64,000 nucleotides of DNA from Flavobacteriales bacterium (GTDB taxonomy: Bacteria > Bacteroidota > Bacteroidia > Flavobacteriales_D > Sanyastnellaceae). A model generated the notes under the pieces. The model was not told the DNA's origin, made no database searches, and saw only the letters and a program-made list of their open reading frames with translations. Made by a program: the position numbers and the translations under genes. The stretch spans positions 2,108,001 through 2,172,000 of the forward strand of contig JAGYJM010000002.1 of the NCBI GenBank assembly GCA_018402085.1, written 5' to 3'. Shown here one piece after another: positions 2,950 to 40,379 of the stretch. How positions within the stretch are numbered: the first letter of the stretch is position 1; each line of letters starts with the position of its first letter.

Positions 2950-2979
2950 TGTTGTTGTTTATGCGCTGATTAACGCCTG

Positions 2980-3010
2980 CGAAAATAGGGGAAGATAACG
3001 CAGTATGAAA
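2980..3010 (-). promoter_or_regulatory. Predicted Bacteroidota-type promoter of sucD
   Basis: On the minus strand a -7 element TATTTTCG (2980-2987) lies 19 bp downstream of a -33-like TTTC (3007-3010). This is close to the TTTG-N19-TAnnTTTG consensus and places the transcript start about 25 bp before the sucD ATG. Confidence 0.45.
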
Positions 3011-3480
3011 ATGAAAGTGGAACGAATAGCCGTTGATGCCCTCAAAATGCTTGCATAACTTCCTGACCTCCGATCGCAGCCTGATATGCACTGCTTGAAG
3101 ACGCAATTTCATATTCTTCTGCGCCTTAGAACAATTCCGGACGTGAATTTCGGAACACCTATTCATGGTGATTTTATCTGCAATCACCATAACCGGCAAT
3201 GATCTGCCCCCCTCCTTTGTCTCCTTTTCAGCGATCGCTGCAACCATCATGAAATTTTGCTGCTGCTATAGAGCAGAGTCGAAATTCTGCATCGCCATGG
3301 TAATTGCAAATGCTGGCGCTCTACTATTGTAGCCAATTACAAGGCTAAACTGACCAATTGCTCAATCATGCCTACAATGCACATATCGATGGTATATTTA
3401 TGATTACCAGTAATTTAATTTTACCTTCAAAGCACCTCAGTTAAATTCTATCTCATACGCTTTAACCAAAACTTAGATTT
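3011..3480. other. Intergenic region without a recognised gene
   Basis: About 470 bp between divergent sucD and the secreted-protein gene. It is AT-rich near 3380-3480, as expected for a promoter of the downstream gene. No conserved ORF or RNA gene is recognised; a 106-codon minus-strand ORF here has no family features. Confidence 0.5.
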
Positions 3481-4638
3481 ATGAAATGTTTAAAATCTCT
3501 CCTCTGGCGAGGGGTGTTCAGCATTGCCCTGCTTGTGGCAGTAAGTACCAACGCCAATTCGCAAACCGGTTGCACTGACTCGAACGCATGCAACTTCGAC
3601 CCCGGTGCTGTTACTGATGACGGCTCCTGCGCTTATACGGGAATCTTTATTCCTGTGAATGTGGGTGATGGGCCGGCAATTGAAGCATGTGCCGCCCCTG
3701 TGGGTTATTACTTCGCGGATCAGGCATGTGTAGCTTCTGTCGTCGCAAGTGACCCTTTTTGTATTGACCCGGCTGGCTCATGGGATAACCTCTGCGAAGA
3801 AGCATACAACAGCTGTCTGGGCTGTGTAGATCCCGCCTTTTACATTCCTTACAACATAGGCACGGGACCTGCCGTGGAGGTTTGCGACGGATCCGAACCG
3901 GCTGGTTATTACGCACCTGACCAAGCTTGCTTAGAGTCAGTTCTCGGTAGCGATGACTACTGCATGACCGTTGAATGGGACGATCTCTGTCAGAACGATT
4001 TGGATCAATGTACTCTGGGATGCTTTGCCGATTGGCATATTCCTATCGTTGCCGCTGATGGTCCTGCCGTTCGTGACTGTGGACCTCCTGCAGGCTACTG
4101 GACACCAGATCAGGATTGTGTTGAATTCACCATTGCAGCAGACCCCTTCTGCACCGAAACCGAGTGGGACATTCTCTGTCAGAACGCCTACACCAACTGT
4201 TCTGTTGGCTGCTCAGATGCTCAATGGTACATTCCAACATCAGCGGGCGTAGGTCCGGCAGTACTTGAATGTGCACCACCTCCGGGCTACGAGTTACCGG
4301 CGAGCCCTATCTGCTTCTTCGAAGTAGTAGCGGCAGACCCTTTCTGCATTCAGATCGAATGGGACCAGGTGTGCATTGACGCATACGACGATTGCACCAG
4401 TGGCTGTACCTACGAATTTGCTTGCAACTACAGCCCGGGAGCGTTGTTTGACGATGGTTCTTGCGGCCAGCAAGGTTGTACGGATTTGAATGCCGTCAAC
4501 TTCAACCCATCAGCCGTCTGTGACGACGGAAGCTGCGTGCTGCAAAATGAATGTCCGGCCGATTTTGACAACAACAATACAGTAAATGCCGCTGACCTGC
4601 TGCAATTTCTAACCTTCTTCGGCAATACCTGCGAATAA
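3481..4638 (+). CDS. Secreted Cys-rich repeat protein with GCTD repeats and dockerin-like C-terminus
   Basis: A 385-aa exported protein of unknown function. A Sec signal peptide occupies about residues 1-28 (cleavage after ANSQ). It is followed by one GCTD...DDGSC repeat, then four divergent modules of about 60 aa with six conserved Cys each (pattern GPAV..C..P.GYY..DQ.C, then DPFC, WD..C, C..GC), then two more GCT repeats. The last 28 residues start CPADFDNNN and contain AADLLQFL before a final Cys. That ending resembles one half of a dockerin/EF-hand Ca-binding loop and recurs at the ends of two other secreted proteins here. No T9SS sorting domain is visible. A terminator follows 30 bp after the stop. 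Confidence 0.85.
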   Translation: MKCLKSLLWRGVFSIALLVAVSTNANSQTGCTDSNACNFDPGAVTDDGSCAYTGIFIPVNVGDGPAIEACAAPVGYYFADQACVASVVASDPFCIDPAGSWDNLCEEAYNSCLGCVDPAFYIPYNIGTGPAVEVCDGSEPAGYYAPDQACLESVLGSDDYCMTVEWDDLCQNDLDQCTLGCFADWHIPIVAADGPAVRDCGPPAGYWTPDQDCVEFTIAADPFCTETEWDILCQNAYTNCSVGCSDAQWYIPTSAGVGPAVLECAPPPGYELPASPICFFEVVAADPFCIQIEWDQVCIDAYDDCTSGCTYEFACNYSPGALFDDGSCGQQGCTDLNAVNFNPSAVCDDGSCVLQNECPADFDNNNTVNAADLLQFLTFFGNTCE

Positions 4639-4666
4639 AGTGAAGTCAAAATAGAAATGGTTCACG

Positions 4667-4696
4667 AAAGCCCTGGCGAATGCCGGGGCTTTTTTA
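4667..4696. terminator. Bidirectional rho-independent terminator
   Basis: The stem AAGCCC-TGGC pairs with GCC-GGGGCTT around a GAAT loop, and a T-run follows on the plus strand. It sits between two convergent genes (ends 4638 and 4694) and can serve both. Confidence 0.8.
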
Positions 4697-5518
4697 TTGC
4701 AGTAATGGCAAGCGACCCCGATAGATCGAGCTTCCGCTTTCATAGCGATAAATCAGTAACGCGCGCGGCTCAAGCGGAATAAAAGTCTCGTTATCAAATA
4801 GCGCGATTTCTGTGTAAAGTTGGCCGTCCGGCAAATAAAGCTGCAACTTCGCTCCGCGCGAAAGCGCGGGATGCGAGAAGGTGACCCCGTTGCGGGTTCG
4901 GGCGATGCGCAAAGCTCCGCTCAAAGCAGTGTCGGCAACACTTACATTGCTCAATACTTCATTCACAGCTTCACCCACGGCTTCAATCACTCCATCTACA
5001 TCCCCGGCCCAGGGGTCATAAACAACGGTGCCGTCAGGGCCAATTACGACAAACATAGGATAACCGTAAAAAGTGCCGAAGTCATTTTCAGCAGTGTACG
5101 GAGCGATCGCTGCAGAAGCACCTCCTTCGTTACTGATTACCGGTAGACTGATACCGTGCGACTCGGCAAAGGCGATAATTTCACTGTTGTCGTCAAAAGC
5201 AGACATCAAGAGGAAATTTACTGGAAGCGCCTGCGAATCGGCCAGGTTCGCGTACTCCTGAAGCTGAGGGTACATGTCATCCAGCATCGGAGCCCCAATA
5301 TAAAAAAGCCCCAATACGACTGCACGCCCCTCATTGAGGTAGTCATCGTACAGTTGATGCAATTCACCATTCACGTCTGTGACCTCAAAGTCAGGAGCCT
5401 GCTGAGCGCACAACTGAAATGGTAACAGTTCAGGCAATACTACGAGCAAGAATAGAGTTATTTGCTTCAAAATGGGATAGCTTCGTTTTTCAAGGTTATT
5501 ACATCCCCAAATCAACAT
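4694..5518 (-). CDS. Secreted redoxin-like (thioredoxin-fold) protein lacking catalytic cysteines
   Basis: A 274-aa exported protein. After a hydrophobic leader ending around LCAQ (about residue 39) comes an AhpC/TSA-Redoxin-like domain (APDFEVTDVNGELHQLYD, VVLGLFYIGAP, then YGYPMFVVIGPDGTVVYDPW). Where CxxC would sit after the first beta strand the sequence reads IGAPMLDD, so neither redox Cys is present. The last 70 residues (from RTRNGVTFSHPAL) look like a T9SS-type C-terminal beta domain. A hairpin element (4855-4873) lies in this tail. The gene is 54 bp downstream of the DUF2892 gene on the same strand and may be cotranscribed. Loss of the Cys residues argues for a binding or structural role rather than redox catalysis. 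Confidence 0.75.
   Translation of the reverse strand: MLIWGCNNLEKRSYPILKQITLFLLVVLPELLPFQLCAQQAPDFEVTDVNGELHQLYDDYLNEGRAVVLGLFYIGAPMLDDMYPQLQEYANLADSQALPVNFLLMSAFDDNSEIIAFAESHGISLPVISNEGGASAAIAPYTAENDFGTFYGYPMFVVIGPDGTVVYDPWAGDVDGVIEAVGEAVNEVLSNVSVADTALSGALRIARTRNGVTFSHPALSRGAKLQLYLPDGQLYTEIALFDNETFIPLEPRALLIYRYESGSSIYRGRLPLLQ
4855..4873 (+). repeat. GGATG hairpin element, locus 1
   Basis: Stem CGCGC, loop GAAA, stem GCGCG, then GGATG. It lies antisense within the redoxin-like gene. See the finding on the dispersed family. Confidence 0.75.
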
Positions 5519-5572
5519 CCCCTACCCGAGTCTGAACGTTTTTGTCAGAGCGCTTGGAAAGCTGCCTGCCGC

Positions 5573-5779
5573 TTACGCTTTCGTCTTGCAGGTATTCAAG
5601 CCCACCAGTCGGTACAACGGACAAAATCCCACAAGGGAGGTAAGCAAAAATATACCGCCAATGGCCAACAGTACATAAGCCAGCGTACCGCTTACCGTTT
5701 CAGTGAAGAACAAGATGGAGATCGCAATGGCGATAACGATGCGGATCACACGATCCGCGTTGCCCATATTCATTTTCAT
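5573..5779 (-). CDS. DUF2892-family small inner-membrane protein
   Basis: A 68-aa protein beginning MKMNMGNADRVIR, with two hydrophobic helices (about residues 14-28 and 33-50) and the C-terminal GFCPLYRLVGLNTC that marks the DUF2892 (YgaP-like) family. The family is found fused or next to rhodanese and sulfur-handling proteins, but its function is poorly known. It is 12 bp downstream of a 33-residue hydrophobic peptide gene and upstream of the redoxin-like gene, all on the minus strand. Confidence 0.88.
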   Translation of the reverse strand: MKMNMGNADRVIRIVIAIAISILFFTETVSGTLAYVLLAIGGIFLLTSLVGFCPLYRLVGLNTCKTKA

Positions 5780-5791
5780 AGTTCGTGTGTT

Positions 5792-5893
5792 TTATGCCTG
5801 CAACCAACCAACTCCGTAAACGATAGCTGTGATCAATCCGATACACAACAGGCATACGAGAATAAGGCGAAGCCAAACAGGCCATGTTTTCAT
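5792..5893 (-). CDS. 33-residue single-pass membrane peptide
   Basis: A short ORF starting ATG at 5893 and ending TAA at 5792. The peptide begins MKTWPVWLRL, continues with a run of about 20 hydrophobic residues, and ends GVGWLQA. It is positioned 12 bp upstream of the DUF2892 gene in the same direction, like the first gene of an operon. The basic/aromatic start plus one transmembrane helix is typical of real small membrane proteins. I cannot name a family. A chance hydrophobic ORF remains possible. Confidence 0.55.
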   Translation of the reverse strand: MKTWPVWLRLILVCLLCIGLITAIVYGVGWLQA

Positions 5894-6029
5894 ACAATGA
5901 AAGGTCTAGCAATTTCAGTTCTGAAAAAAAGACATTCGTCAGGTTCAGGACGGTCAACCGTCTGCCGTCTGCGGTCTGCGGTCTGCGGTCTATGAATAGT
6001 TAGTCCTGAAAGAGTCTCGAAGGAGTCTT

Positions 6030-6037
6030 TATCTTCG
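6030..6037 (+). promoter_or_regulatory. Candidate -7 element for mnmE
   Basis: TATCTTCG matches TAnnTTTG with one mismatch and lies 16 bp before the ATG at 6054. No clear -33 element is seen. Just upstream (5950-5992) is a short GTCTGC(C/G) tandem repeat. Confidence 0.35.
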
Positions 6038-6053
6038 CCTAAAGTATCTGAAT

Positions 6054-7439
6054 ATGTTCTTCCACGCTGACGATGCTACCGTCTGTGCCCTTTCAACAGC
6101 TCCGGGAATGGGAGCCATTGCGGTGATTCGCGTTTCCGGACCGGACGCTATCGGCATTTGCCATGACCTCTTTTCCGGCGACCTGGTGAAGGCAGATTCA
6201 CATACGGTGAAATACGGTCGCTTCATGAAAGATCAGGAGACCCTGGATGAAGTTGTCATGACCGTCTTTCGCGCACCAAACAGCTTCACCGGAGAAGATG
6301 TCGTAGAGATCTCATGCCACGGGTCAGTCTTCATTCAACAAGAGATACTGCGCATTCTCGTTGAAAACGGTTGTCGCTACGCCGAGCGCGGCGAATTCAC
6401 GTTCAGGGCTTTTCAGAACGGTAAAATGGACCTCAGTCAGGCCGAGGCGGTGGCTGACCTCATTGCGGCAGAGAGCGAGGGTGCGCACGAACTGGCCTTG
6501 CACCAGATGCGCGGCGGATTCAGTAAAGAGATCAACGACTTGCGTGAACAACTGATCCATTTCGCGGCGCTCATTGAACTTGAGCTCGACTTCAGCGAAG
6601 AAGATGTAGAGTTCGCTGACCGCACTGAGTTGACCAAGCTTCTGCTAAAAATTGAAGGCGTGCTCACCGGTCTCATCAACAGTTTCAGATCAGGCAACGC
6701 CATCAAGAATGGTATTCCGGTAGCCATCGTGGGGCGACCGAATGCAGGTAAATCAACCTTGCTGAATGCGCTTCTGAACGAAGAGCGCGCGATCGTGAGC
6801 GACATTCCGGGTACCACGCGCGACACCATTGAAGATCGTGTGACCATTGATGGCATTCAATTTCGCTTCATTGACACCGCCGGGTTGCGCGATACCGAAG
6901 ATGCGATTGAGAAGATCGGCGTAGAGCGCAGCCGTGAAGCCATTAAGAAGGCCTCAATCATCGTCTATCTGTTTGATATCAACGAGATGGATGCCACTAC
7001 AGTTGAGCACACCGCCGAAACGATCCGCAATGAGTTGCATGAAGACCAGCACATGTTGATTGTGGCCAATAAGCTTGACCTTTCTGATGAGAGCGCCGCA
7101 AAAGCGGCGGATGGCCACCCGCGCGAGACACTCTTCATTTCTGCACTCAACCGCAAAGGACTCGAAGACATGAAAGAATCGCTCATTAACCTGAGCAACC
7201 TCGCCCACCTTGACGGACAGCAGACGATGGTGACCAACATCCGTCACCACGAAGCCCTCACAAAGGCCTACGCTGCACTTAAAGAAGTCATGCAGGGTAT
7301 GGAAACAGGGCTGCCCGGCGACCTGCTGGCCATCGACATCCGAAAGGCGCTTCACCACCTCGGTGAAATCACCGGAGGCATTGACGTTGACCGCGACATC
7401 CTCGGAACGATTTTCGGGAAGTTTTGTATTGGGAAGTGA
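6054..7439 (+). CDS. mnmE: tRNA uridine-5-carboxymethylaminomethyl(34) synthesis GTPase MnmE
   Basis: Cytoplasmic GTPase that, with MnmG, modifies U34 of tRNA anticodons using a folate C1 unit. The 461 aa match the family length. An N-terminal folate-binding TrmE domain (about 1-120) and a helical domain surround a G domain with GRPNAGKS at 227-234, DTAG at 274-277 and NKLD at 339-342. The protein ends in the diagnostic CIGK. A hairpin element (7095-7113) falls in the variable stretch just after NKLD, encoding about residues 348-354. Start chosen at the MFFHADDATVCALST context typical of the family. Confidence 0.97.
   Translation: MFFHADDATVCALSTAPGMGAIAVIRVSGPDAIGICHDLFSGDLVKADSHTVKYGRFMKDQETLDEVVMTVFRAPNSFTGEDVVEISCHGSVFIQQEILRILVENGCRYAERGEFTFRAFQNGKMDLSQAEAVADLIAAESEGAHELALHQMRGGFSKEINDLREQLIHFAALIELELDFSEEDVEFADRTELTKLLLKIEGVLTGLINSFRSGNAIKNGIPVAIVGRPNAGKSTLLNALLNEERAIVSDIPGTTRDTIEDRVTIDGIQFRFIDTAGLRDTEDAIEKIGVERSREAIKKASIIVYLFDINEMDATTVEHTAETIRNELHEDQHMLIVANKLDLSDESAAKAADGHPRETLFISALNRKGLEDMKESLINLSNLAHLDGQQTMVTNIRHHEALTKAYAALKEVMQGMETGLPGDLLAIDIRKALHHLGEITGGIDVDRDILGTIFGKFCIGK
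7095..7113 (+). repeat. GGATG hairpin element, locus 2
   Basis: Stem GCCGC, loop AAAA, stem GCGGC, then GGATG. It is in the sense orientation within mnmE, in a region of the G domain that varies between species. Confidence 0.75.
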
Positions 7440-7571
7440 GCATTACAGATTGCTGATCGCTGACCTTTCTGACCTTCCCTAAATAGCGTTGACCGTTTGG
7501 TTCAACATTCATCTATTTTCCACTCTAACAAGCTCACATAAAACTCCTATCTTTCAGTCAACCAATCAACT

Positions 7572-10500
7572 ATGAAGACTTTAATCGCTGCAAGCTTACT
7601 CCTCCTCTCATTCCAGTCCACAATGATCGCGCAATGCGGAGCCAACGAAGTTGAAATCAGCATTGAAATCACAACTGACGGATACGGAGATGAGACCTCG
7701 TGGGCTTTCACCAATCAAGAGGGTGAAGTGCTCCTTGAAGGCGGACAAGATGGTGCCTATCAGAACAACACGACATACTCAGACGAGATTTGCGTGGTCG
7801 ATGAAGGCTGCTACTTCTTTGAAATATGGGACACCTTCGGAGACGGTATACTGTCACCGGGTGGCTATTCTGTGTTTGTCAACGACGAACTCATTGCTAC
7901 AGGATCGAACGAAATTGGCACGTATGCCAGTGAAAATGTACACTGTCCGGCAGCCGTTTGCGATGAAAACCAACTCGAACTCAAAGTCGTTGTAGATACC
8001 GATCAGTACGGTGGAGAAACCTACTGGACCATTACAGACCTTGAAGAGAATATCATTCTTCAGGGTGGTCAGGACGGCGCGTACGGCGGCAATACAACGT
8101 ATGCTGACAGTATCTGTGTTGCTGATGATGGCTGCTTCTTCTTCGAAATCTATGACACCTTCGGTGACGGTATCTTCTCCCCCGGCGGATACACATTCTT
8201 CATCAATGATGAGCCGCAGTTCAGCGGAGCCGATGACCTCGGTTCTTACTTTGGGGCAACGGTTCACTGTCCTGCTGCTTGCGGCATGGTGAACGATGCA
8301 CTCCTTGCCACGAACAATCATATCAGCGGACAAAATCCCTTTTCAGGTGAGGAGTTACTGGAAATCATGGATACCTTCTTCACCTTTCCGGAGTGCCTTG
8401 CTTCAAGCGAAGAAATGATCCTCCTCAGCAAGAGCGTGATCGAGGCGTTTGACAGCCAAGAAGGCGCACTCTTCATGACACCTGAAACAGAATACGGCTT
8501 TGAAAGAGATCCTGCAGCCAACCCCGGAATGGAGCTACAACATGCCATGATCGCCCTTGAGCAGGGTGTTTTCGACGAAGTCTTCACTCCTGAAGTTTAT
8601 AATGAATTCCCGGAGCACTTGCATCAATGGCTCTTCAGCTCATGCGAGAACTTTCCCGCTTATGTTGAACCACCGGTAGATTCAACTGAAAGCCATACCA
8701 CACTGATCAGAGCGAATTTTGCTGAACCTGACGGAATGAACCCCTATTTTGATATCAATGCTGACGGTACCAACCACGCTTTACGCCCCACCGGCACTTA
8801 CCTGGCACCGGGTTCATTCGCCACGGTAAGCGTTCCACAAGAACTTGTGAACCAGGATTACTACATCCGCGTGGGTTCACATGAGTGGGACTTGTCAAAC
8901 AAATGGATCTACAAGCGACTTGACAGGGTTTCAAAGAAATTCCAGATCACGTCAACAAGTACTGTTGTCTTCAACCCACTGGGCGGAGCAATATCCATAC
9001 TTGTACCTTACGGAGCCGATGAAGGCAACGTTGAAGTCAGCGTTACCAACGCACTCGAAGCACCTTTCTTCTCAATCAAGTCATTCGATTACACTGAAGA
9101 CTTTGATGCCGAGCTCGACAAGCCGGCTCCATGGGCGGTGTTTGAATCAGAAAATGTCATGTACTCCATTCCCAAACACTCGATAATTCCCGGTCAATAT
9201 GACCTCGAACAAACCTTGATGGATTGGGAAACAGCCTTACGGGGTGTCAATTCCATTATGGGACGTGAAATCATCCCCGATAAGCACAACATGTACATGA
9301 TCTCGGACTTGATCATTCGCGGTGGCGCTTATTCTATCGGCTATCCCATGTCGAATACGCCTCAAGACTACATCGACGTACCCGGCCCCGCTTACTTCAT
9401 CAACGGCCCCGGACCTGATGACGAAGTCAACTTTCACGAAACCGGTCACGCGCTCGCAATGTCCAAATTCCCGGGTGAGATTGAGGCCTTGGTCAATTTC
9501 CCTTACATCATGGCAATGAACTATGGTTTGGGGGTTGACCTTAACGAGGCCATCAATTACAGCTTTGTGCCAAACACCTTCGATCTTGACCGAACCGCCA
9601 CCCATCGCATGGTCTCCAACACCTTCGGTGTGGAGCGTGATATTTCAAATACGACTACCGACGAGGTGCGGTATCAGCACCGTGGCTACGGCCATTATTT
9701 CGAGATCGTGAACCTTTTGGGATGGTGTCCGCTTAGAAATTTCTGGAGACAAGAGTATATCGACTACCAGAATGGCATTGATCACGGGATTAACGGACAA
9801 GACATTGACAGCCGCATTATACGAATGTGCCAGGCCGCTCAAACTGATCTTCGACCCTTGTTCCACGTGTTTGGCATCCTGTCGCAAGACCCTCCTGCTG
9901 TTCAAGCTGCTCTCGACGCCGCAGAAATCTCGCCGTCATTGGAGATTTATAACAGGCTTCAGGAGTACCTTGAACTGATTCCACAAGACAATGATGCCTT
10001 TGTAGAATATGCGCAGAGCGTCTACCCTAACCTTTACGATGACGGACCGGATGCAAACCCTGATTACGGTGTGGGGTGGCACTTCCTCAAATCGCTGTCG
10101 TATGATGCTGCTGAGGCTGCAGAAAGAACCACTCTTCTCGAAGAAATTATCGACCAATACTATCCGAACGGTGCGCCGCAAGGAAACACCCCGGATGTTT
10201 GCTGTGTGCTAAATCAGATGGATATCGACTTCGACGGTAACGATGTTACTGTCACAGGTGGTGTTGCACCTTATGACATTTCGATCGAAAGCGAGGGTGA
10301 GCAACAGGTTGTGACGGTGACCGATTACGACAACTGCGTTCTTACGGAATCATTCGTCAATATCAGCACCTCCGAGCAGGCAACGAGCTTCTTTAAAGTC
10401 TACCCGAATCCAACCTCAGGTGAAGTGCAACTCGAAATTAGTGGAATAGGAGTTCCCATTGTCATTGACATCCGAGACCTTCAGGGTCGCCTGGTGCAGT

Positions 10501-10625
10501 CTGTGAATATCTCACAGACCAATACAGTGTTTACATTCACGATGCCTGAGAGCAGCGGGGTATATCTTCTCGAAATCCGGTCAGGAGGTCATAAAGTTGG
10601 ATATACACGAGTGGTCAAGCAATAG
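7572..10625 (+). CDS. Secreted M60-like zinc metallopeptidase with T9SS sorting domain
   Basis: A 1017-aa exported protein with a signal peptide at about 1-21. Two similar N-terminal beta modules of about 105 aa follow (each with GGQDGAY and DTFGDGI..PGGY), at roughly 22-130 and 131-235. A peptidase region resembling the M60/enhancin (mucinase-like) family comes next: an APGSFATVSVP..L beta domain, NPLGGAISI, then the zinc motif HETGH at 622-626 with a downstream Glu at 636. LGWCPLRNFW further on also fits the family. The end is a type A T9SS sorting domain (VYPNPTSGEVQLEISG to the C-terminus). Expected role: extracellular cleavage of glycoproteins or mucin-like substrates. The family call rests on motif arrangement, not a profile search. 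Confidence 0.8.
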   Translation: MKTLIAASLLLLSFQSTMIAQCGANEVEISIEITTDGYGDETSWAFTNQEGEVLLEGGQDGAYQNNTTYSDEICVVDEGCYFFEIWDTFGDGILSPGGYSVFVNDELIATGSNEIGTYASENVHCPAAVCDENQLELKVVVDTDQYGGETYWTITDLEENIILQGGQDGAYGGNTTYADSICVADDGCFFFEIYDTFGDGIFSPGGYTFFINDEPQFSGADDLGSYFGATVHCPAACGMVNDALLATNNHISGQNPFSGEELLEIMDTFFTFPECLASSEEMILLSKSVIEAFDSQEGALFMTPETEYGFERDPAANPGMELQHAMIALEQGVFDEVFTPEVYNEFPEHLHQWLFSSCENFPAYVEPPVDSTESHTTLIRANFAEPDGMNPYFDINADGTNHALRPTGTYLAPGSFATVSVPQELVNQDYYIRVGSHEWDLSNKWIYKRLDRVSKKFQITSTSTVVFNPLGGAISILVPYGADEGNVEVSVTNALEAPFFSIKSFDYTEDFDAELDKPAPWAVFESENVMYSIPKHSIIPGQYDLEQTLMDWETALRGVNSIMGREIIPDKHNMYMISDLIIRGGAYSIGYPMSNTPQDYIDVPGPAYFINGPGPDDEVNFHETGHALAMSKFPGEIEALVNFPYIMAMNYGLGVDLNEAINYSFVPNTFDLDRTATHRMVSNTFGVERDISNTTTDEVRYQHRGYGHYFEIVNLLGWCPLRNFWRQEYIDYQNGIDHGINGQDIDSRIIRMCQAAQTDLRPLFHVFGILSQDPPAVQAALDAAEISPSLEIYNRLQEYLELIPQDNDAFVEYAQSVYPNLYDDGPDANPDYGVGWHFLKSLSYDAAEAAERTTLLEEIIDQYYPNGAPQGNTPDVCCVLNQMDIDFDGNDVTVTGGVAPYDISIESEGEQQVVTVTDYDNCVLTESFVNISTSEQATSFFKVYPNPTSGEVQLEISGIGVPIVIDIRDLQGRLVQSVNISQTNTVFTFTMPESSGVYLLEIRSGGHKVGYTRVVKQ

Positions 10626-10704
10626 AATACGTCTATGCTCAAAGCCACCGCTGCATTGAATGCTACATCAGGCCCATGTTGTTGCTCGACCTTTTGATAA
10701 GCAG

Positions 10705-12972
10705 CTATTGCGGGCATGAATTTCCGTACAAGGTTAGAAACAGTAAAAGATCTGCTATACCAATTTCTCCATCATTGTTCAGGTCTCCCGCACATTCTGC
10801 GCTGTAAACGCAGCTACCATCATCATCCAGCGCTTCTGCGCTGTAATTACAGGCCTGAGGATCAGTACACCCTGAAAGATCAATGCAGCCATTTCCCGGA
10901 GGAAAACTACCTGAACAAACGCCGTTCGGATCGTCGCTAATGCCAAAATCACCGCAATCAAAGCCCCATGACTCACAGTTAAAATTCACCGGAATTCCGA
11001 AGTATTCAAAGCTGTTATCGTCTCCAATACCATCACCCAGCCAGGCGAGAACGGAAATAGGAATTGACTGACCATCACAGTCACAAATGAAGCCACAATT
11101 TCCGTTGTTAAATACCACCTCTTCTGAAATGCTTCCGGTACTTGTGGTGTAGTAGATGTAGTAAAGGGTGTCAGGCGCTGTATCACTGAGGTTGACCGAC
11201 TCGCCATCACCGATTTGAATGCCTTCTGCGATAAGGTCAATGCAGGTGTAGTCGGCCGCATCTTCAGTTTTATAGCAAAGTGTTTCTACAAGACACGATC
11301 CTGACAGGCTGAACTGCATATTGATCACCGGAAGCAGCCCATTACCGTCATCCTGGCATGCAGCCTGGCTGACTTGCAATCCGGAAGGCTCGCAAACGAG
11401 TGATTCTTGCGTCCAGACACAAACATCTACTTCTCCAAAGGAGTTATTGTTGAACTCCCATATCCTCAAATAATATGTAGAACCGGGTGTCAGTCCGTCA
11501 AGTTCAAGAAAAGGCAAAAACCCGGGTCCGCTATCATCATCACAGGCTACCAACTGACTGACTTCATTGCAATCGTCTGCACTGTATACCGCCAGCACGG
11601 GGTCAGTTAGATCGCTGCCCGCAACCAGGTCAAACTCGATAATGACCGATTCAACAGGCGCTATAAAACTGGCCCACACATCGCCACCACCGTAACCAAC
11701 AGTGGGGTCACCGGCGCAGTCAGGAGGCGCCGTAGGGCTTCCAGTTGCGAGGGTATTTGACAACGTTGCAAAATTGCATACTTCTTCAACTGTCAACGTC
11801 AATGATTCGCAGGCTTCATCATTGGGGTTATCGCCGGCTAAAGATTCTGTTATGCAAACACTCGTGTAGAAATTATCCAAAATGGTCATGTAGTCGAGTC
11901 CGTCATTGGCAAAGCCCTGCGCCCCGCGCTGGCATAGCCCTACACCATGACCGAATACATGTCCGGAAGAACCGCATGAATTCGGAATTTCGCAGCAATC
12001 TCCTTCTCCGGCAATGGTGCAGTCAATGTGCCCACTGCAATCGCGGCACACGCAATATGGCAGCGCATTACCGCTAGTGGAACAGTTCGGAGAAGGACTA
12101 TAAGATCCTTGATTGGCATTTTGCGTTTTCACGCCATTGCAGCGAGCTGAATACAGTGCCTGAATCAGGCTTCCATTGTATAAAATAACCTGGCCTGATG
12201 TGGCATAAGATGCTTCGAGGCAAGTAGCCGAGATATTACTGCTGTATGCCTGTCCGCAATTTGCTCCCGAACCGGCACTGAGCCGCCAGAGTCCGAAAGT
12301 TCTGGCTGCTACGCTTTGCGCCTTGAGCGCTTCAAACGGAAAAAAGGATCCCATTTCTGCCTGAATGACGCCTGCAAAAAAATCGTCTGTAGGGATGTTT
12401 CCCGTGAAACCATTTGAAGGGCAACCATAGCTGTTGTAGCCATCGATCAGATTATCTACAAATACCTCGCCCGGCGGCGCATAGTCACAGTTTCCTGTGA
12501 ATGCCTCAGGCTCGTAGGGCTGAGGACCGGGATAATCCCCGTGCTGCTCGTTCAGCAGTGGATGTCGAACCTCTGCATCCCAGAACGCTGCGTATGCACT
12601 GTACTCGCTTGATGACAATCTTGATGACCACATCGGAACCTCAATGACTGATGTGGCTGCGGCGAGGTGGTGGTGATACATTATTTCGTAGCCTTCAAGA
12701 GAGAACCTTAAGACAAAGGGCGCTTCTTCTGAAAAAGTATCGGGCAACTGAGTCACACCGGTTTTACCTGTATAAACGGCGAACTCCGGAGTTGCAGCGA
12801 GGGCCTCTTCAATGGACATTACCCTGTCATTTTTGTCATCCAGAAGTAGCCAGCCTTCAACCCGCACGTTCTGCAAGGCCTCTCTTTCAACCAATGAGTA
12901 AACCCTCGCTTCTGACTGCGCAAAAGCGCAGGATGCGACAAAAACCATCAAAAAAAGCAGAAGTGTTTTCAT
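10705..12972 (-). CDS. Secreted SpoIID/LytB-domain protein with dockerin-like C-terminus
   Basis: A 755-aa exported protein. The start at 12972 begins a clean signal peptide (MKTLLLFLMVFVASCAFAQ). Central residues about 180-385 match the SpoIID/LytB domain: a PFEALKAQSVAARTF segment, ATSGQVILYNGS, CNGVKT and GHGVGLCQRGAQGFA, the family's signature near the active cleft. SpoIID is a lytic transglycosylase on stem-less peptidoglycan in spore formers. Here it is followed by two beta-rich modules, a GCTD-type repeat and a terminal CAGDLNNDGEIG...DLLLFL segment like that of two neighbours. No T9SS domain is visible. It is convergent with the M60-like gene. Two hairpin elements lie in this gene, one in the signal-peptide codons. 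Confidence 0.82.
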   Translation of the reverse strand: MKTLLLFLMVFVASCAFAQSEARVYSLVEREALQNVRVEGWLLLDDKNDRVMSIEEALAATPEFAVYTGKTGVTQLPDTFSEEAPFVLRFSLEGYEIMYHHHLAAATSVIEVPMWSSRLSSSEYSAYAAFWDAEVRHPLLNEQHGDYPGPQPYEPEAFTGNCDYAPPGEVFVDNLIDGYNSYGCPSNGFTGNIPTDDFFAGVIQAEMGSFFPFEALKAQSVAARTFGLWRLSAGSGANCGQAYSSNISATCLEASYATSGQVILYNGSLIQALYSARCNGVKTQNANQGSYSPSPNCSTSGNALPYCVCRDCSGHIDCTIAGEGDCCEIPNSCGSSGHVFGHGVGLCQRGAQGFANDGLDYMTILDNFYTSVCITESLAGDNPNDEACESLTLTVEEVCNFATLSNTLATGSPTAPPDCAGDPTVGYGGGDVWASFIAPVESVIIEFDLVAGSDLTDPVLAVYSADDCNEVSQLVACDDDSGPGFLPFLELDGLTPGSTYYLRIWEFNNNSFGEVDVCVWTQESLVCEPSGLQVSQAACQDDGNGLLPVINMQFSLSGSCLVETLCYKTEDAADYTCIDLIAEGIQIGDGESVNLSDTAPDTLYYIYYTTSTGSISEEVVFNNGNCGFICDCDGQSIPISVLAWLGDGIGDDNSFEYFGIPVNFNCESWGFDCGDFGISDDPNGVCSGSFPPGNGCIDLSGCTDPQACNYSAEALDDDGSCVYSAECAGDLNNDGEIGIADLLLFLTLYGNSCPQ
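10824..10842 (-). repeat. GGATG hairpin element, locus 3
   Basis: On the minus strand: stem AGCGC, loop AGAA, stem GCGCT, then GGATG. Sense orientation within the SpoIID-domain gene (codons NYSAEALDDDG). Confidence 0.75.
12917..12935 (+). repeat. GGATG hairpin element, locus 4
   Basis: Stem TGCGC, loop AAAA, stem GCGCA, then GGATG. Antisense within the signal-peptide codons (ASCAFAQ) of the SpoIID-domain gene. Confidence 0.7.
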
Positions 12973-13176
12973 GAATGTAGTTAGGTATCTGTTGTTCAGA
13001 GCTGTAAAGATAAAGCCAACTTGTACACTCCCCATCTGTTTTTCGATGTAAGCCCTCAAAAAGCATATCCAAAATGCCCATCAGATCGACCAGATCACAT
13101 ACCAGAGTCTCGCCGAAGGTCATCTGTTATAGTCTTTTGTGATTTCATTACCCATACATTGTTTATCATACCGTTA

Positions 13177-13389
13177 ATGAAAAGACACAAAATTCTCGTT
13201 TCACTAATCCTGACTTTAATTCAGACCTATGCAGCAGCTCAGATACCTAACAATATCGATCCCGGAAATCCAGGAGGTGAACAAGGCACGTCTTATTTTT
13301 GGGATCAACCCGCATTGTATATTTCAGCTTTGACGCTGGTGGTGCTTACAATGCTCATTTTGTGGTATGGAAGCAAGCGCCGAAAGTGA
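13177..13389 (+). CDS. Small exported membrane protein, 70 aa
   Basis: The start at 13177 (MKRHKILVSLILTLIQTYAAAQ) gives a signal-peptide-like N-terminus, a short Pro/Asn/Gly-rich linker (PNNIDPGNPGGEQG), one transmembrane helix (about residues 45-65) and a basic end KRRK. An upstream ATG in the same frame at 13021 has no leader features and was rejected. No family is recognised. It is divergent from the SpoIID-domain gene, about 204 bp away, and stands alone. Confidence 0.6.
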   Translation: MKRHKILVSLILTLIQTYAAAQIPNNIDPGNPGGEQGTSYFWDQPALYISALTLVVLTMLILWYGSKRRK

Positions 13390-13933
13390 TTTTGGTCAAA
13401 ATTACACGCCGTTACAACACTTTTACCGATCTTGCATGTTCAATCCATCACTGCAAGGAAATGGATCACATACTATGGTATCCGCGTAGCGGATCAGGCA
13501 ACACATACTTCAACGGACGGCTTCGACGGTTCGCAGACAGTTCAGATGAACATCTGAACTGGGTTCAGGCCAAGGAAACGAAGAATTGCGATTTGGCGAA
13601 ATTAAAACATCAACGATCCCGAGCTGTTTCAAGTAATAACGAGTCACTACAGGACTTTCTTTTCCGATGCGCACCGGAGCGAACGTTAAGCATCTCCGAT
13701 CATAGCAGATTTGAGCCTGGTATTGCACTCCTTAAAGAAACCTTCCGGCACATGAGCCACCGCAGAAATTGAAAGGAGCGCCAAAAGCGAAAGTCCATGT
13801 TGAGCACGTTCAGCAAACATTACATTCATTTTTTAATCCCTTTGATGCAACACGCACCTCCGTTAGTCGGCTTTAAGCCCCTGTTTAGGGGTAACATTTG
13901 CGTGTTATTTCTCAGCCCTTACCTTTGAGGCGA
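13390..13933. other. Intergenic region with strong inverted repeats
   Basis: About 540 bp without a recognised gene. ORFs on both strands are short and have no family features; some minus-strand segments could be remnants of a decayed gene. It contains the ATCCGC/GCGGAT palindrome at about 13480-13495 and the perfect inverted repeat listed separately at 13538. Confidence 0.5.
13538..13561. repeat. Perfect 11-bp inverted repeat
   Basis: The arms CAGTTCAGATG and CATCTGAACTG are separated by AA. No T-run follows, so it is not a normal terminator; it could be an operator or a relic repeat. Confidence 0.7.
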
Positions 13934-15085
13934 ATGACAGACCAGATAGCACACCCCACGGCACAGCATAAACTGCCTACACAGGAAACCCCTGTTCGTT
14001 TTACCAATCGTGAACAGAACGACTTCGCGAAAACCCTTCGCAAGCGGGTAAACGACTACTTTAAATCAAAAGGCATCAGCCAGAATGCAAATGCATCGAT
14101 GGTCGCTAAAACGTTCATCTTGCTCAGTGCATACATCCTGCCCTTTGTGGCCTTGCTCGTATTCACACCTCCATTGTGGGCATCCCTGCTTATTTGGGCT
14201 GTGATGGGCTTTGCGCTCGCCGGTATCGGGATGAGCGTAATGCATGATGCGAACCACGGAGCTTATTCCAAAAACCAGAAAGTCAACAAGTGGGTAGGTT
14301 ACACCCTCCTCATGCTCGGCGGAAACGTGTACAACTGGAAAACACAGCACAATGTGCTGCACCACACCTACACGAATATTGCCGGAAAAGACAACGATAT
14401 CGATGGTTCTTTCTCGATGCGTTTCGACCCACACCAGCCACACAAGGAGTTCCACAAACACCAGTGGTATTACGCGTTCTTCTTCTACAGCATTATGACA
14501 CTGTACTGGTGCACAGGGAAAGATTTTGTGCAATTTGTGAAGTATAAAAAAGAGGGGGTCAACAAACAAACCCCGGCACAAAACCGCAAAATGCTCTGGA
14601 ACATCATTGCTTCAAAAGCAGGTTTCTTTAGCGTTTTTATCGGCTTGCCCCTGCTTGCTGGTATACCCATCGGACAAATACTGCTCGGTTTTTTGATCAT
14701 GCATATTATTGGTGGACTTGTACTATCACTGATTTTTCAATTGGCTCACGTGGTTGAAGAAACCGAATTCCCGCTGCCTGACGCATCAGGGTCGATGGAG
14801 CACTCATGGCTCGTGCATCAGTTGCACACAACAGCCAATTTCGCTCGTGAAAATTTGATTCTCAACTGGTACAGCGGCGGACTAAACCACCAGGTGGAGC
14901 ACCATTTGTTCCCGAACATTTGTCATGTGCACTATCCGAAAATCGCTCCGATCGTGAAGCAAACCGCAGAAGAGTTCGGCTTCCCTTACAACGAGCACGA
15001 AACATTTGGCGGCGCGTTGAAATCGCATGTCAAGATGCTGCGCCGCTTTGGTGCCCCATCGCTTGAAGAGATTGCCAACGGCTAG
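13934..15085 (+). CDS. Membrane fatty acid desaturase (acyl-lipid/linoleoyl-CoA type)
   Basis: A 383-aa integral-membrane di-iron desaturase introducing a double bond into fatty acyl chains. The three His boxes are HDANH at residues 104-108, HNVLHH at 139-144 and HQVEHH at 319-324. The Gln in the third box is typical of front-end (delta-5/6-like) desaturases. Hydrophobic segments lie at about 55-110 and 210-270. ATG 13934 (MTDQIAHP) was preferred over 13898, which adds residues without homology features. Likely function is adjusting membrane lipids or making polyunsaturated fatty acids. Regiospecificity cannot be read from sequence. Confidence 0.92.
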   Translation: MTDQIAHPTAQHKLPTQETPVRFTNREQNDFAKTLRKRVNDYFKSKGISQNANASMVAKTFILLSAYILPFVALLVFTPPLWASLLIWAVMGFALAGIGMSVMHDANHGAYSKNQKVNKWVGYTLLMLGGNVYNWKTQHNVLHHTYTNIAGKDNDIDGSFSMRFDPHQPHKEFHKHQWYYAFFFYSIMTLYWCTGKDFVQFVKYKKEGVNKQTPAQNRKMLWNIIASKAGFFSVFIGLPLLAGIPIGQILLGFLIMHIIGGLVLSLIFQLAHVVEETEFPLPDASGSMEHSWLVHQLHTTANFARENLILNWYSGGLNHQVEHHLFPNICHVHYPKIAPIVKQTAEEFGFPYNEHETFGGALKSHVKMLRRFGAPSLEEIANG

Positions 15086-15205
15086 TCCGTCTGCCGTCTG
15101 CCGACAACCGTCTGCCGTCTGCCGTCTGCCGTCTGCCGACAACCGTCTGCTGACTGCTGACAGCTGACTGCTGACTGCTGACTGTTGACTGCTGACTGAA
15201 ACACA
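15086..15205. repeat. Short tandem repeats (GTCTGCC heptamers, CTGACTG-type)
   Basis: A run of (C)CGTCTGC units passes into GACTGCTGACTGCTG units directly after the desaturase stop. A similar GTCTGCC/GTCTGCG stretch lies at 5950-5992. No coding role is apparent. Confidence 0.8.
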
Positions 15206-15389
15206 ATGAAAGGTGAATGATCGAGGGTTGTTCACCTTTTTTCTTTCCCAATGAAAACTTCCATCTGACAGACATCAACACCGATTGTCATGAGATTTCG
15301 CGGTTTTATCGAAAATTACCAATCCTTAATCTTTAACGTAAACTATTGCATTGCGCATGTGGTTATTTTCGCATATCGAAACCTTAACC

Positions 15390-18224
15390 ATGAAAAGCAA
15401 CGCTCTTTACCTTCTCGTTCTCATAGCATCCTGCGCTTTTGCGCAGCAAGTAAACGCTCAGTGTAGCTCACTGTACTACCCACAATCGGGACGTGTATGG
15501 GTCAACCACGACCTCGGCGGATTGCCAAATTATACGAAATACGTGCGATTTAAAATCGACACACCTATTCCTAACCCGAATGTCACGCTCTTCATCTTTC
15601 AGAGCCCGAATGGGTTTTTGTCTTATGACCCGGTGAACAACCGCATGGGATACGGCGTTACGCACAACCGACAGGGCTGCAACTGCTGCGGCAATGGCTG
15701 TTCATCTACAGAGGGATACACCTTTGCCAGCGGCCTCACACTCAATGAATGGCACACGGTCGCCATTGCTGTTGACAGCAATGACGATGTGACCATAATG
15801 CTAGACGGTGTGATTCAATCACCCGTTGGTCCGTCTTTTGACGGATGTTGCAGCGGAAATTACAACTACACGGTTATCGGGAACCTTATCGGCGGAAACA
15901 ACCCGAGAGGCTTTTATGGATGGATTGACGAAGCAGCGCTCTGGAATACCGAATTGTCAGCCGCAGACCTCATCGCGCTAAATGAGTGCGACGCAGCACC
16001 ATTAAGCAGCGCCTACGGATACTGGGATTTCAACGAAGGAACCGGGGCCGTAGCCGTAGATCAATCAGGGAATGGCTTTGACGGAAACGTGCAAAGCCTC
16101 ACATACACGGATGACACAGGCGACTGTTGTGCTGCCGGCTGCACAGATGAGAACGCGGCGAACTATGACCCTTCAGCACTTGAAGACGACGGCTCGTGCA
16201 TCTTTCCCGGATGTACAGATCAAAGCGCTGACAACTACGATCCGAACGCCAATGAAGATGATGGATCGTGCCTTTTCAACGGCTGCACAAATCCTGTAGC
16301 CTGCAACTACGACGCCAATGCCAATTCGGATGACGGCTCATGTATTTTACCCGGGTGTACAGACGATGCCGCATGCAACTATGACCCTCAGGCAGGATGT
16401 GATGATGGCTCGTGCGCATATACCATTGACTGCGCAGGAATATGCGGCGGCTCTTTTGTAAATGACGAATGCGGCAATTGCTATGACCCCGCATTGGCCA
16501 ATGAAACTGTTGAAGTGATCTTTGATTATACCGGTTCTGCACAGTCATGGGTTGTTCCTGAAGGGGTGACCCAGGTTACGTTTGATGTTTATGGTGCACA
16601 GGGAAGCGACCAGGCGCATGGTGGCTGGGGCGGACGTGCCAGTGGATCGCTCAATGTGAACAGTGGAGACGAATACCTTATTTATGTTGGGGGTAGCGGC
16701 TGGACAGGCGGCTGGAATGGAGGTGGCAACCTCGCCTCAGGAAATGAAAGACGCGGAGGAGGTGCCTCAGACATCCGTCATGGAGGAGCCTCGCTCACAG
16801 ACCGCATCATCGTTGCCGGAGGTGGCGGTGTGCGCGGCAATGCCACAACTTCAGGCTGCAACAGTACCGATATTCCGATCACTGGTGGCGCCGGAGGCGC
16901 CGAGACAGGTGAAACCGGTGGCAACGGCGGAACCGCAACAGGCGGAACCGGCGGCACCCAAAATGCCGGTGGTTCACCCGGTTCAGGAAACATTGGGTCA
17001 GGAACCCCCGGAACCCTCGGAGCCGGAGGTAACGGCTTTAGCAACGACGCCTTCGGAGGCGGAGGCGGAGGTTACTACGGAGGCGGCGGAGGTGGCACTT
17101 CCGGCGGATGCAACCGCGGCGCCGGAGGCGGCGGCTCTAACTACATTGGAGGTGTAACCCCTATACTCTCCGAAAGCGGGGTAAATGAGGGCAGCGGACA
17201 GATCATCATTTCGTATAACATAGCAAATGTACCCGATTGTGTTCTTGGATGCACTGACGATAACGCTGACAATTATAACGCTGAGGCAACCAATGACGAT
17301 GGCTCGTGCATATACCTTGGCTGTACCAACGAACAGGCTGACAATTATGACCCCAATGCAAACCAGGATGACGGGTCGTGCATTTTCTCAGGGTGCACAG
17401 ATCAAAGCGCTGACAACTACGATCCGAACGCCAATCAAGACGATGGGTCTTGTATTTTCAGCGGCTGCACCAACCAGCAAGCTGACAATTATGACCCTGT
17501 AGCCAATCAGGACGATGGCTCGTGCATCTTCTCAGGTTGCACCGACAGCGGCGCAGACAACTATGACCCCATAGCCAACCAAGACGACGGATCATGCATT
17601 TTCTCAGGTTGCACAGATGAGAATGCAGATAACTATGATCCACAAGCGAACAACGAAGATGGTTCATGCATCTACCTCGGCTGCACTGACCTGGAGGCCG
17701 CTAATTACGATGCGTCTGCAAATCAAGACGACGGCTCGTGTATTTACCCGGGTTGCACAAATGATGCAGCAGTCAACTATGACCCCCAGGCCAATCAGGA
17801 CGATGGCTCTTGCATCATTGAGGGCTGTACATATGAAAATGCAGTGAACTACAACGCTGAGGCCAATAAAGATGACGGAACCTGCATTTTCCCTGACTGT
17901 CCTGCCCCCTCAGGATGCACAGACCAGCTGGCATGCAACTATAGCCCCATTGCAATAACCGATGACGGAAGCTGTACTTACGATTGCTTCGGCTGCACAT
18001 ATACCACAGCTGACAACTATGATCCGGCAGCCACCGTTGACGACGCCAGTTGTATATTCACGGCAGGTTCGGAATTCTGCGCAGATGGCACTACCTGGGA
18101 TAGTGAAACAGAGACATGCATCCCTCTGCCTGATACTTGTCCGGAAGACTTCAACGATGACGGTCTCGTCAATTCAAGCGATTTGTTGTTCTTCCTCGGG
18201 CGCTTTGGTGGAAGCTGTGAATAA
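15390..18224 (+). CDS. Large secreted LamG/glycine-rich/GCTD-repeat protein with dockerin-like C-terminus
   Basis: A 944-aa exported protein. The start at 15390 gives the signal peptide MKSNALYLLVLIASCAFAQ. Residues about 30-215 look like a concanavalin A/LamG domain (LDGVIQSPVGPS, WIDEAALWNTELS). Five GCTD...DDGSC repeats follow, then a Gly-rich domain (about 390-610, with VTQVTFDVYGAQGSD and GGGGGYYGGGGGGTSGG; Pfam Gly_rich type), then about ten more 24-aa GCTD repeats. The last 29 residues (CPEDFNDDGLVN...DLLFFL) form the dockerin-like end shared with two neighbours. Each repeat carries two Cys and several Asp, so disulfide-linked, Ca-binding modules are likely. Probably a surface or matrix protein. 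No enzyme is evident. Confidence 0.85.
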   Translation: MKSNALYLLVLIASCAFAQQVNAQCSSLYYPQSGRVWVNHDLGGLPNYTKYVRFKIDTPIPNPNVTLFIFQSPNGFLSYDPVNNRMGYGVTHNRQGCNCCGNGCSSTEGYTFASGLTLNEWHTVAIAVDSNDDVTIMLDGVIQSPVGPSFDGCCSGNYNYTVIGNLIGGNNPRGFYGWIDEAALWNTELSAADLIALNECDAAPLSSAYGYWDFNEGTGAVAVDQSGNGFDGNVQSLTYTDDTGDCCAAGCTDENAANYDPSALEDDGSCIFPGCTDQSADNYDPNANEDDGSCLFNGCTNPVACNYDANANSDDGSCILPGCTDDAACNYDPQAGCDDGSCAYTIDCAGICGGSFVNDECGNCYDPALANETVEVIFDYTGSAQSWVVPEGVTQVTFDVYGAQGSDQAHGGWGGRASGSLNVNSGDEYLIYVGGSGWTGGWNGGGNLASGNERRGGGASDIRHGGASLTDRIIVAGGGGVRGNATTSGCNSTDIPITGGAGGAETGETGGNGGTATGGTGGTQNAGGSPGSGNIGSGTPGTLGAGGNGFSNDAFGGGGGGYYGGGGGGTSGGCNRGAGGGGSNYIGGVTPILSESGVNEGSGQIIISYNIANVPDCVLGCTDDNADNYNAEATNDDGSCIYLGCTNEQADNYDPNANQDDGSCIFSGCTDQSADNYDPNANQDDGSCIFSGCTNQQADNYDPVANQDDGSCIFSGCTDSGADNYDPIANQDDGSCIFSGCTDENADNYDPQANNEDGSCIYLGCTDLEAANYDASANQDDGSCIYPGCTNDAAVNYDPQANQDDGSCIIEGCTYENAVNYNAEANKDDGTCIFPDCPAPSGCTDQLACNYSPIAITDDGSCTYDCFGCTYTTADNYDPAATVDDASCIFTAGSEFCADGTTWDSETETCIPLPDTCPEDFNDDGLVNSSDLLFFLGRFGGSCE
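15427..15445 (-). repeat. GGATG hairpin element, locus 5
   Basis: On the minus strand: stem TGCGC, loop AAAA, stem GCGCA, then GGATG. It lies antisense within signal-peptide codons ASCAFAQ, the same sequence as at locus 4. Confidence 0.7.
17247..17890 (+). repeat. Tandem 72-bp coding repeats (GCTD modules)
   Basis: About nine in-frame 72-bp units encode GCT...NYDP.AN.DDGSC modules. Units differ mainly at third positions, so the array is older than the 153-bp array in the next gene. Confidence 0.8.
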
Positions 18225-23142: not shown

Positions 23143-23206
23143 CTATATCGTGAAGCTCAACACTTCAAATACGATCATCACAGAACACCTGCTGATTCGT
23201 AAATAG
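23090..23206 (+). pseudogene. Out-of-frame end of T9SS sorting domain
   Basis: In the +1 frame relative to the giant repeat protein, the sequence encodes STGTAVLQLAHLADGNYIVK and continues to ...EHLLIRK with a TAG at 23204-23206. This is the expected second half of a type A sorting domain, including the closing basic residues. Restoring frame needs removal of one base or insertion of two near 23095-23105, where there is no homopolymer. Confidence 0.85.
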
Positions 23207-23226
23207 TATTGAATTACTAAGCATCT

Positions 23227-36454: not shown

Positions 36455-36696
36455 TTGTTTACGATCATTTTTTGTGACGACACTTGCACACCATCGAACG
36501 ACAATAATACAATGTAAAACCCTGATGATAAATCGTTTAATTCCAGCAGCTGATAACCATTATTGAGATTATTGTAGCTCTTAAGCAATCTACCGTTCAT
36601 GTCAGATACAGTGAGAACCACATTCACACCTTCCCCGGGTGGAGTGAATGAAACCAAGGCCTCATTCTGAGCAGGGTTTGGAACTACCCTGAACAA
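36451..36696 (-). pseudogene. Separated T9SS sorting domain of the module-A peptidase gene
   Basis: An 81-codon ORF (MFRVVPNPAQNEALVSF...) that matches the C-terminal sorting domain of the intact copy-B protein. In copy A it is out of frame with the main ORF because an A-run has four As where copy B has five (TTTT at 36735-36738 on the plus strand). It could be translated only by frameshifting or by reinitiation from its ATG, which lacks a signal peptide. Confidence 0.88.
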
Positions 36697-40253: not shown

Positions 40254-40279
40254 AAGAATGATGTTAAGATTCAACTTTG

Positions 40280-40310: not shown

Positions 40311-40379
40311 TAACTCCTTCGTTTTTAACAGATTAGAAGAAACACCGTTACAATAGGTCAACTGGTTTCGAGAATCCTT

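Follow-up and report, generated by a model that had tools for sequence, protein, structure and literature searches.

A single dockerin repeat as a putative C-terminal localisation tail on exported proteins of a Flavobacteriales bacterium

Predictions of surface proteins in Bacteroidota rest largely on the C-terminal tails of the type IX secretion system (T9SS) and on lipoboxes. Two dockerin-based systems are among the closest described to the element reported here: in Ruminococcus flavefaciens, non-duplicated half-dockerins are reported to be functional (PMC8063739), and in freshwater Planctomycetes the 'Planctosome' model places non-cellulosomal dockerins on extracellular peptidases and couples them to cohesin-bearing anchoring and adaptor proteins (PMC6461901). 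A literature search returned no paper with the terms 'GC-type dockerin', 'NF041540', 'dockerin-anchored' or 'dockerin sorting signal'. The DNA analysed here, referred to as the window, is a stretch of 64,000 nucleotides from a Flavobacteriales bacterium of the family Sanyastnellaceae (assembly GCA_018402085.1, contig JAGYJM010000002.1, positions 2,108,001 to 2,172,000), for which a preliminary description had reported a shared dockerin-like motif at the C-termini of three exported proteins ending at 4638, 10705 and 18224. We found that this motif is one dockerin repeat, and we propose, with as much doubt as confidence, that it serves as a localisation tail that is interchangeable with a T9SS type A (T9SS-A) domain or an N-terminal lipid and likely mediates non-covalent docking at the cell surface.

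The first of the three proteins (3481-4638, plus strand, 385 aa) is exported and Cys-rich, carries GCTD repeats, matches no Pfam family at E ≤ 10 and ends in the single motif CPADFDNNNTVNAADLLQFLTFFGNTCE (4552-4635, plus strand), which the profile described below recovers in its own genome at E = 2.2e-18, this tail being one of the rows used to build the profile. The second (10705-13059, minus strand, with its stop at the low end, 10705) is an exported SpoIID/LytB-domain protein of 784 aa (SpoIID PF08486, 2.6e-10; TIGR02669, 2.1e-30) in which one GCTD repeat is accompanied by the C-terminal motif CAGDLNNDGEIGIADLLLFLTLYGNSCPQ (10708-10794, minus strand), likewise matched by the profile to which it contributed a row. 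In the third, an exported protein of 957 aa (15351-18224, plus strand), a glycine-rich domain (ALK_LTK_GRD PF12810, 2.9e-10) and many GCTD repeats are combined with the C-terminal motif CPEDFNDDGLVNSSDLLFFLGRFGGSCE (18138-18221, plus strand). The tails span 28-29 residues from the first motif Cys to the stop, share 9 invariant alignment columns and all contain the loop pattern D-x-[ND]-x-[DN]-x6-D; each consists of one repeat between two Cys residues and is devoid of an inner GC...C pair. An AlphaFold prediction for the last 40 aa of the third open reading frame (ORF) gave a loop and a predicted helix at residues 25-34, with a mean predicted local distance difference test (pLDDT) score of 77.7.

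To place the motif in its genomic context, we searched the 3.78-Mb genome with a profile (A1) made from the alignment of the three window tails and obtained 93 matches at E ≤ 10 in 75 ORFs. Because of these 93 matches the motif of the three tails is not a chance resemblance, and the motif first reported for three proteins is thus confirmed and far more widespread, with 71 ORFs carrying it at the C-terminus. In these 71 the last A1 match lay no more than 12 residues from the stop, and only one or two residues followed the last Cys in 63 (52 + 11) of them; 53 tails consisted of a single match and 18 were tandem. The remaining four ORFs comprised a chance-level match (E = 1.3) in an ORF without signal peptide, two proteins with a motif copy straight after the N-terminal signal peptide (C2:2606450 and C2:3123048), and an internal copy in an ORF that extends beyond the fetched stretch. 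One of the proteins at C2:2606450 and C2:3123048 ends in a coiled-coil-like stretch. The claim that the motif is always C-terminal stood with few exceptions, in this genome (71 of 75 ORFs) and in the stretches located elsewhere (see below), and common internal or cytoplasmic copies, which would have spoken against it, did not materialise in this genome. A hydrophobic N-terminal stretch was present in 62 of the 71 tailed ORFs by a crude score, and of the nine without one, seven start within glycine-rich or GCTD sequence, as if frame-broken (by eye). The reported constant association with GCTD repeats applied to the three window proteins and, by a loose pattern, to only 57 of the 71 tailed ORFs, the other 14 being free of such repeats. 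As a separate observation, a cluster of 14 dockerin-tailed GCTD or glycine-rich ORFs occupies C2:733,900-832,200 (L041-L046, L239-L243), where several ORFs appear, by eye, to be frame-broken in the glycine-rich part, leaving signal peptide and tail in separate ORFs.

The tailed proteins were compared with those carrying T9SS-A tails. At least 144 matches to TIGR04183 (T9SS type A) were found in the genome, a lower bound because scoring covered 150 of the 189 first-look candidates, and by position and strand none of the 71 dockerin-tailed ORFs overlapped any of these 144. TIGR04131 (the T9SS type B C-terminal domain, CTD) was without a match in an NCBIfam scan of the three window proteins. To learn what the tails are attached to, we scanned the bodies of ten chosen dockerin-tailed proteins (8 tandem, 2 single) against Pfam: eight matched families at E ≤ 1e-5, namely subtilase S8, PAD_porph, GSDH, M12B reprolysin, trypsin-like, LVIVD, GH18 and M36 fungalysin, two had no match at that threshold, and no cellulase was found among the ten. 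The scanned bodies are thus ordinary extracellular enzymes and repeats.

The kinship of the tails to dockerins was clearest for the tandem form. Of 16 tandem tails (profile A2, made from 16 of the 18 in this genome, the two most divergent omitted), NF041540 matched 14 (best E = 1.4e-8) and PF00404 matched 15 at E ≤ 10. In the PDB, the tandem-tail profile ranked the cellulosomal dockerin 2y3n first (E = 3.6e-8). An AlphaFold model of a relative's tandem tail had pLDDT blocks of 84-96 from residue 31, with helices at 42-50 and 70-79, and the predicted fold found its best PDB match in the type II dockerin 2y3n_B, with a TM score of 0.85 (by target length) and an rmsd of 1.5. In the alignment a central GC was present in 16 of 16 tandem tails, and 15 of 16 had four Cys residues, so that each repeat holds a separate C...C pair. 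The tandem tail is a dockerin both in its sequence and in its predicted fold. Isolated repeats gave weaker signals: at E ≤ 10, NF041540 matched 39 of 41 single or last repeats (best 7.7e-5), the ORF ending at 18224 had an isolated tail that scored 20 bits, below the 29-bit cut-off, and none of the three window proteins, taken whole, had a listed NF041540 match at E ≤ 10. PF00404 itself matched the genome at only two places at E ≤ 0.001, both above the cut-off. The window tail, a loop and helix bracketed by a Cys pair, equals one unit of the tandem form and is one dockerin repeat. The half-dockerin identity proposed earlier is thus borne out by the NF041540 and PF00404 matches, the PDB dockerin match and the predicted fold of the tandem form. 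The F-hand traits, a calcium-loop sequence and a predicted helix, are present, and duplication into two repeats is found in the 18 tandem tails and missing from 53 of the 71. Judging from its loop residues, the tail would be expected to bind calcium, and its Cys pair probably forms a disulfide.

Comparison of related bodies within the genome showed that dockerin and T9SS-A tails replace each other. We compared the 71 dockerin-tailed bodies with 49 ORFs each holding a TIGR04183 match, taken from stretches that cover 68 of the 144 places. A PAD_porph-type protein with a dockerin tail (C2:569625) shared 63% identity over 502 aa with a T9SS-A protein (C2:293656), and an FG-GAP-like protein with a dockerin tail (C2:1556650) shared 62% over 858 aa with its adjacent T9SS-A counterpart (C2:1553664); in both pairs the similarity covers the whole T9SS protein up to the tail. 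In the adjacent pair it stops at the same point in both proteins, after which one carries GCTD repeats, another segment and finally a tandem dockerin, and the other the T9SS-A tail. A third pair, trypsin-like C2:1145619 (dockerin) and C2:2087640, was 40% identical over 614 aa. Single-tailed proteins of this genome showed shorter and weaker similarity to T9SS-A proteins, for example 40% over 176 aa for C2:1691705. In the relative G007, two paralogues of one gene cluster bear tandem dockerin tails and their neighbours T9SS-A-like tails (by eye).

Single tails were found to alternate with other ends across species. One body family was present in 171 of 249 genomes of the order (E ≤ 1e-20), and among 40 hand-picked loci of this family, whose tails were assigned by eye, 21 carried a single dockerin tail, 11 a T9SS-A tail, 5 were tail-less and 3 were unread; 4 of the 21 dockerin-tailed loci belong to three other families of the order. 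In 20 loci inspected by eye for an N-terminal lipobox, one was present in 5 of 5 tail-less copies, 0 of 6 with T9SS-A and 0 of 9 with dockerin tails, a split with a chance probability of 6e-5, which serves as a guide only since the copies are related and hand-picked. A GCTD-like repeat follows directly behind the lipobox in all five tail-less copies (by eye), and GCTD-like repeats lie immediately upstream of the tail in 14 of the 21 dockerin copies (L158-L171), the other seven having none in their last 85 residues. Because the repeats adjoin either the tail or the lipobox, the GCTD spacer, where present, is on the anchor side. The tail is thus swapped with two real anchoring devices and therefore most likely does a comparable localisation job, and the suggestion that it substitutes for other sorting or anchoring signals is supported as far as tail swaps can show.

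Beyond this genome, the tail is concentrated in its family. Of 60 relatives searched with A1 at E ≤ 0.001, all 37 own-family genomes (own included) had matches, from 1 to 109 each, the counts of some tail-rich genomes being lower bounds (136 candidates scored), and 3 of 23 genomes from other families of the order had one match each. In an even sample of 395 genomes across the phylum, 9 had a match, and more than one was found only in two own-family genomes (at least 20 each). A DNA pattern of the motif located 56 stretches in named genome contigs. Under the strict pattern the motif lay within the last 45 residues of its ORF in 48 of them; L107 holds a tandem copy that is likewise C-terminal, L124 has 39 residues beyond the motif up to an open contig end and is not C-terminal within the contig, and six are chance matches (L103, L104, L108, L109, L142 and L148). 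The named matches are mostly metagenome-assembled Flavobacteriales; one assembly is labelled Chryseobacterium gleum, a name that may be wrong.

The preliminary description had further suggested a cohesin-like partner, and this held in part. In two genomes of another family (G618 and G044), a dockerin-tailed gene lies 60-80 bp from, and on the same strand as, a gene for a T9SS-A protein with a cohesin-like domain, and in G044 the adjoining dockerin tail is the sole tail found. The domain is homologous to that of L094 and L095 (phmmer, 6.5e-26 and 2e-14), where it passes the Pfam cohesin cut-off, and the top PDB matches of a profile of this domain type were cohesins, at a weak E = 0.026. A cohesin gene of G010 is located about 5 kb away from a member of the swapped body family, the tail of which is unread. 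The tail-rich genome G011 encodes a scaffoldin-like protein (L092, C45:54.7-56.3 kb) that combines four cohesin-like repeats with a tandem dockerin of the GC type at its end. This protein matched the PDB scaffolding protein 1g1k at E = 1.4e-4 and was found in 1 of 60 genomes. The genome under study gave the suggestion no support: none of three cohesin profiles found a match there (A5 and A6 at E ≤ 0.01, and Pfam PF00963), although a divergent cohesin may escape such sequence searches. Among same-family genomes, A5, a local cohesin type, matched 6 of the 13 that have no more than 12 tails and at most 1 of the 24 richer ones (E = 0.009, with stops), the 12-tail limit having been chosen after the data were seen, and an A5-type cohesin was rejected as the common receptor of tail-rich genomes. 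The Pfam cohesin profile showed no such trend at E ≤ 0.01 (3 of 13 tail-poor and 4 of 24 tail-rich genomes, two of them over the cut-off), leaving 20 of 24 tail-rich family genomes without a match; across the whole family it matched 12 of 114 genomes, 5 over the cut-off and none in the own genus, and a Pfam-type cohesin is unsupported as a general receptor. A6 and A5 gave no convincing match to each other. A cohesin is thus a plausible local or ancestral partner.

A further candidate receptor was a domain of about 230 residues at the N-terminus of both T9SS-A and dockerin-tailed proteins (A9, the 'VE.YY' domain; L225, G007, 2926-5543), with the pattern LE.IIVE.YY...TYR.Y.D. Of the 60 relatives, 39 have the domain and 40 have the tail, and 39 have both. 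It had no PDB match at E ≤ 10, no convincing NCBIfam match and, in the proteins scanned, no Pfam match to the domain itself. A9 was rejected because tailed proteins themselves contain it (4 of 75 ORFs) and because it has no cohesin similarity, and its co-occurrence with the tail is no evidence of binding.

These observations can be assembled into a mechanism in which bodies would be exported by a Sec signal peptide and would, over evolutionary time, have acquired an end of one of three kinds that can stand in for each other. Such an end would be a T9SS type A domain, a lipid at the N-terminus, or a dockerin tail in half or tandem form, with GCTD repeats often serving as the anchor-side spacer. 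Through its dockerin tail a protein would most likely be held non-covalently by a surface receptor; in some relatives this receptor would probably be a cohesin-bearing T9SS-A protein from the adjacent gene, and in the tail-rich genome studied here the receptor would be unrecognisable by sequence. The tailed proteins would cross the outer membrane possibly by carriage with a T9SS-A partner, and would be displayed and docked at the cell surface. Several points weigh against this proposal. Some motif copies are not C-terminal, and the dockerin partners in all three in-genome pairs are of the tandem form, so that, in the comparison with 49 T9SS-A ORFs, no single-tailed protein of this genome shows a whole-body swap. 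No recurrent receptor-like neighbour of the tails was seen by eye in 20 stretches, and PF00963 had no match in the genome at E ≤ 10. The opposition of A5 to tail number is contrary to one shared A5-type receptor, and the cohesin-bearing (c15) proteins themselves contain a dockerin-like segment (PF00404, E = 0.0028 in L219), which may be the cohesin's true partner. Finally, a signal peptide combined with a docking module could leave the proteins periplasmic.

Kinship with dockerins suggests docking, and the lack of cohesins leaves room for a new sorting signal. In its boldest form, which we consider doubtful, the proposal would amount to a second surface-display system beside the T9SS in one Flavobacteriales family, in which a disulfide-bracketed half-dockerin of about 30 residues would be necessary and sufficient for display of dozens of proteins per genome, its receptor or translocon would not be a known cohesin, and proteins would pass from one system to the other by exchanging a C-terminal cassette of GCTD spacer and tail. 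An unlikely alternative is that the half-dockerin acts as an outer-membrane secretion signal of a new kind, recognised by another translocon or by the T9SS, for which it would be an additional CTD type with a separate shuttle, and involves no docking. The replacement of T9SS-A by dockerin tails on related bodies in one genome, the expansion of tails in genomes lacking the A5 cohesin and the large T9SS-A cargo set are all consistent with such a signal, as is the reported reading of more than one CTD type by the T9SS via dedicated shuttles (PMC12618676). The same source, however, gives known CTDs as about 100 residues (type A, a beta-sandwich) or 150-235 residues (type B) (PMC12618676), whereas the tail has about 30 residues and one predicted helix, and no shuttle-like gene was seen flanking tail clusters by eye, no family search having been made.

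An ordinary cohesin-dockerin assembly whose cohesins are too divergent for sequence detection here would account directly for the dockerin character of the tandem tails, for the cohesin-like genes that adjoin a dockerin-tailed gene in G618 and G044, and for the Pfam cohesins of the four tail-rich genomes, including the four-cohesin protein of G011; functional half-dockerins have a reported precedent in R. flavefaciens (PMC8063739). This explanation is nevertheless improbable to a similar degree, given that all three profiles remained unmatched in the own genome, that the four-cohesin protein occurs in just one of 60 genomes and that the mutual match of A5 and A6 is unconvincing. Still less probable is a mere stabilising cap, that is, a calcium-binding end of Cys-rich extracellular proteins with no role in localisation: frequent co-occurrence with Cys-rich GCTD repeats would fit it, and the Cys pair and calcium-loop residues do suggest a role in stability, but 14 of the 71 tailed ORFs have no such repeats, dockerin tails (mostly the tandem form) sit on ordinary exoenzymes such as the subtilase, M36, M12B, GH18 and GSDH proteins, and on related bodies the place of the tail is taken by either of two genuine anchoring devices.

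Other features of the window concern the SpoIID/LytB protein and the T9SS tails. The body of the protein at 10705-13059 was unmatched in 59 other relatives (E ≤ 1e-10) and was possibly acquired; found in 1 of 60 genomes, its own, it was uninformative as a tail-swap test. In the GCTD-rich ORF at 18619-23142 (plus strand), a frame change cuts the T9SS-A tail, of which only TIGR04183 positions 1-38 are in frame and the remainder continues in another frame (about 23040-23210). The ORF at 36684-40361 (minus strand), by eye a near copy of 57432-61244, has its T9SS-A tail out of frame, downstream at 36457-36684, and this shift is either a real change or an assembly error. The regions 34931-40361 and 55912-61244 appear by eye to be a duplicated two-gene block of high similarity, each with a 507-aa and an approximately 1250-aa T9SS-type protein.

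In sum, a dockerin tail is shared by 71 ORFs of one genome, which include proteases and a chitinase-type enzyme and have no T9SS-A match. If the tail sorts proteins, it would mark an anchoring route missed by T9SS-based counts, could be used as a display tag of 30 residues and would allow a clean test, with tail-swapped paralogue pairs, of what decides surface location; the question is also raised of what a dockerin binds where no cohesin is visible. Of the known systems, GC-type dockerin domain-anchored proteins (NF041540) are alike in that the own-genome tandem tails match the model, and differ in that the model has 67 positions whereas each window protein has a single repeat that lacks an inner GC...C pair; that a central Gly-Cys and two repeats characterise NF041540 we infer from its name and from the tandem tails. 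The cellulosomal dockerin type I (PF00404) shares the loop-helix repeat, and the tandem form is predicted to fold like type II 2y3n_B, yet 53 of the 71 tails have one profile match rather than two and no cohesin was found in the genome by the profiles used. The R. flavefaciens half-dockerins, likened here by description and not by sequence, are part of a cohesin-based cellulosome, whereas in the present genome no cohesin was seen and tails alternate with T9SS-A. The Planctosome belongs to another phylum and has a proposed cohesin anchoring protein, and the available part of its source describes neither half-dockerins nor tail swaps (PMC6461901). The T9SS type A CTD (TIGR04183), finally, occupies the same place on similar bodies, was found on none of the 71 dockerin-tailed ORFs, and is swapped with the dockerin tail on paralogues; the two have no sequence match, the dockerin tail being a small loop-helix unit and the T9SS-A domain a beta-sandwich.

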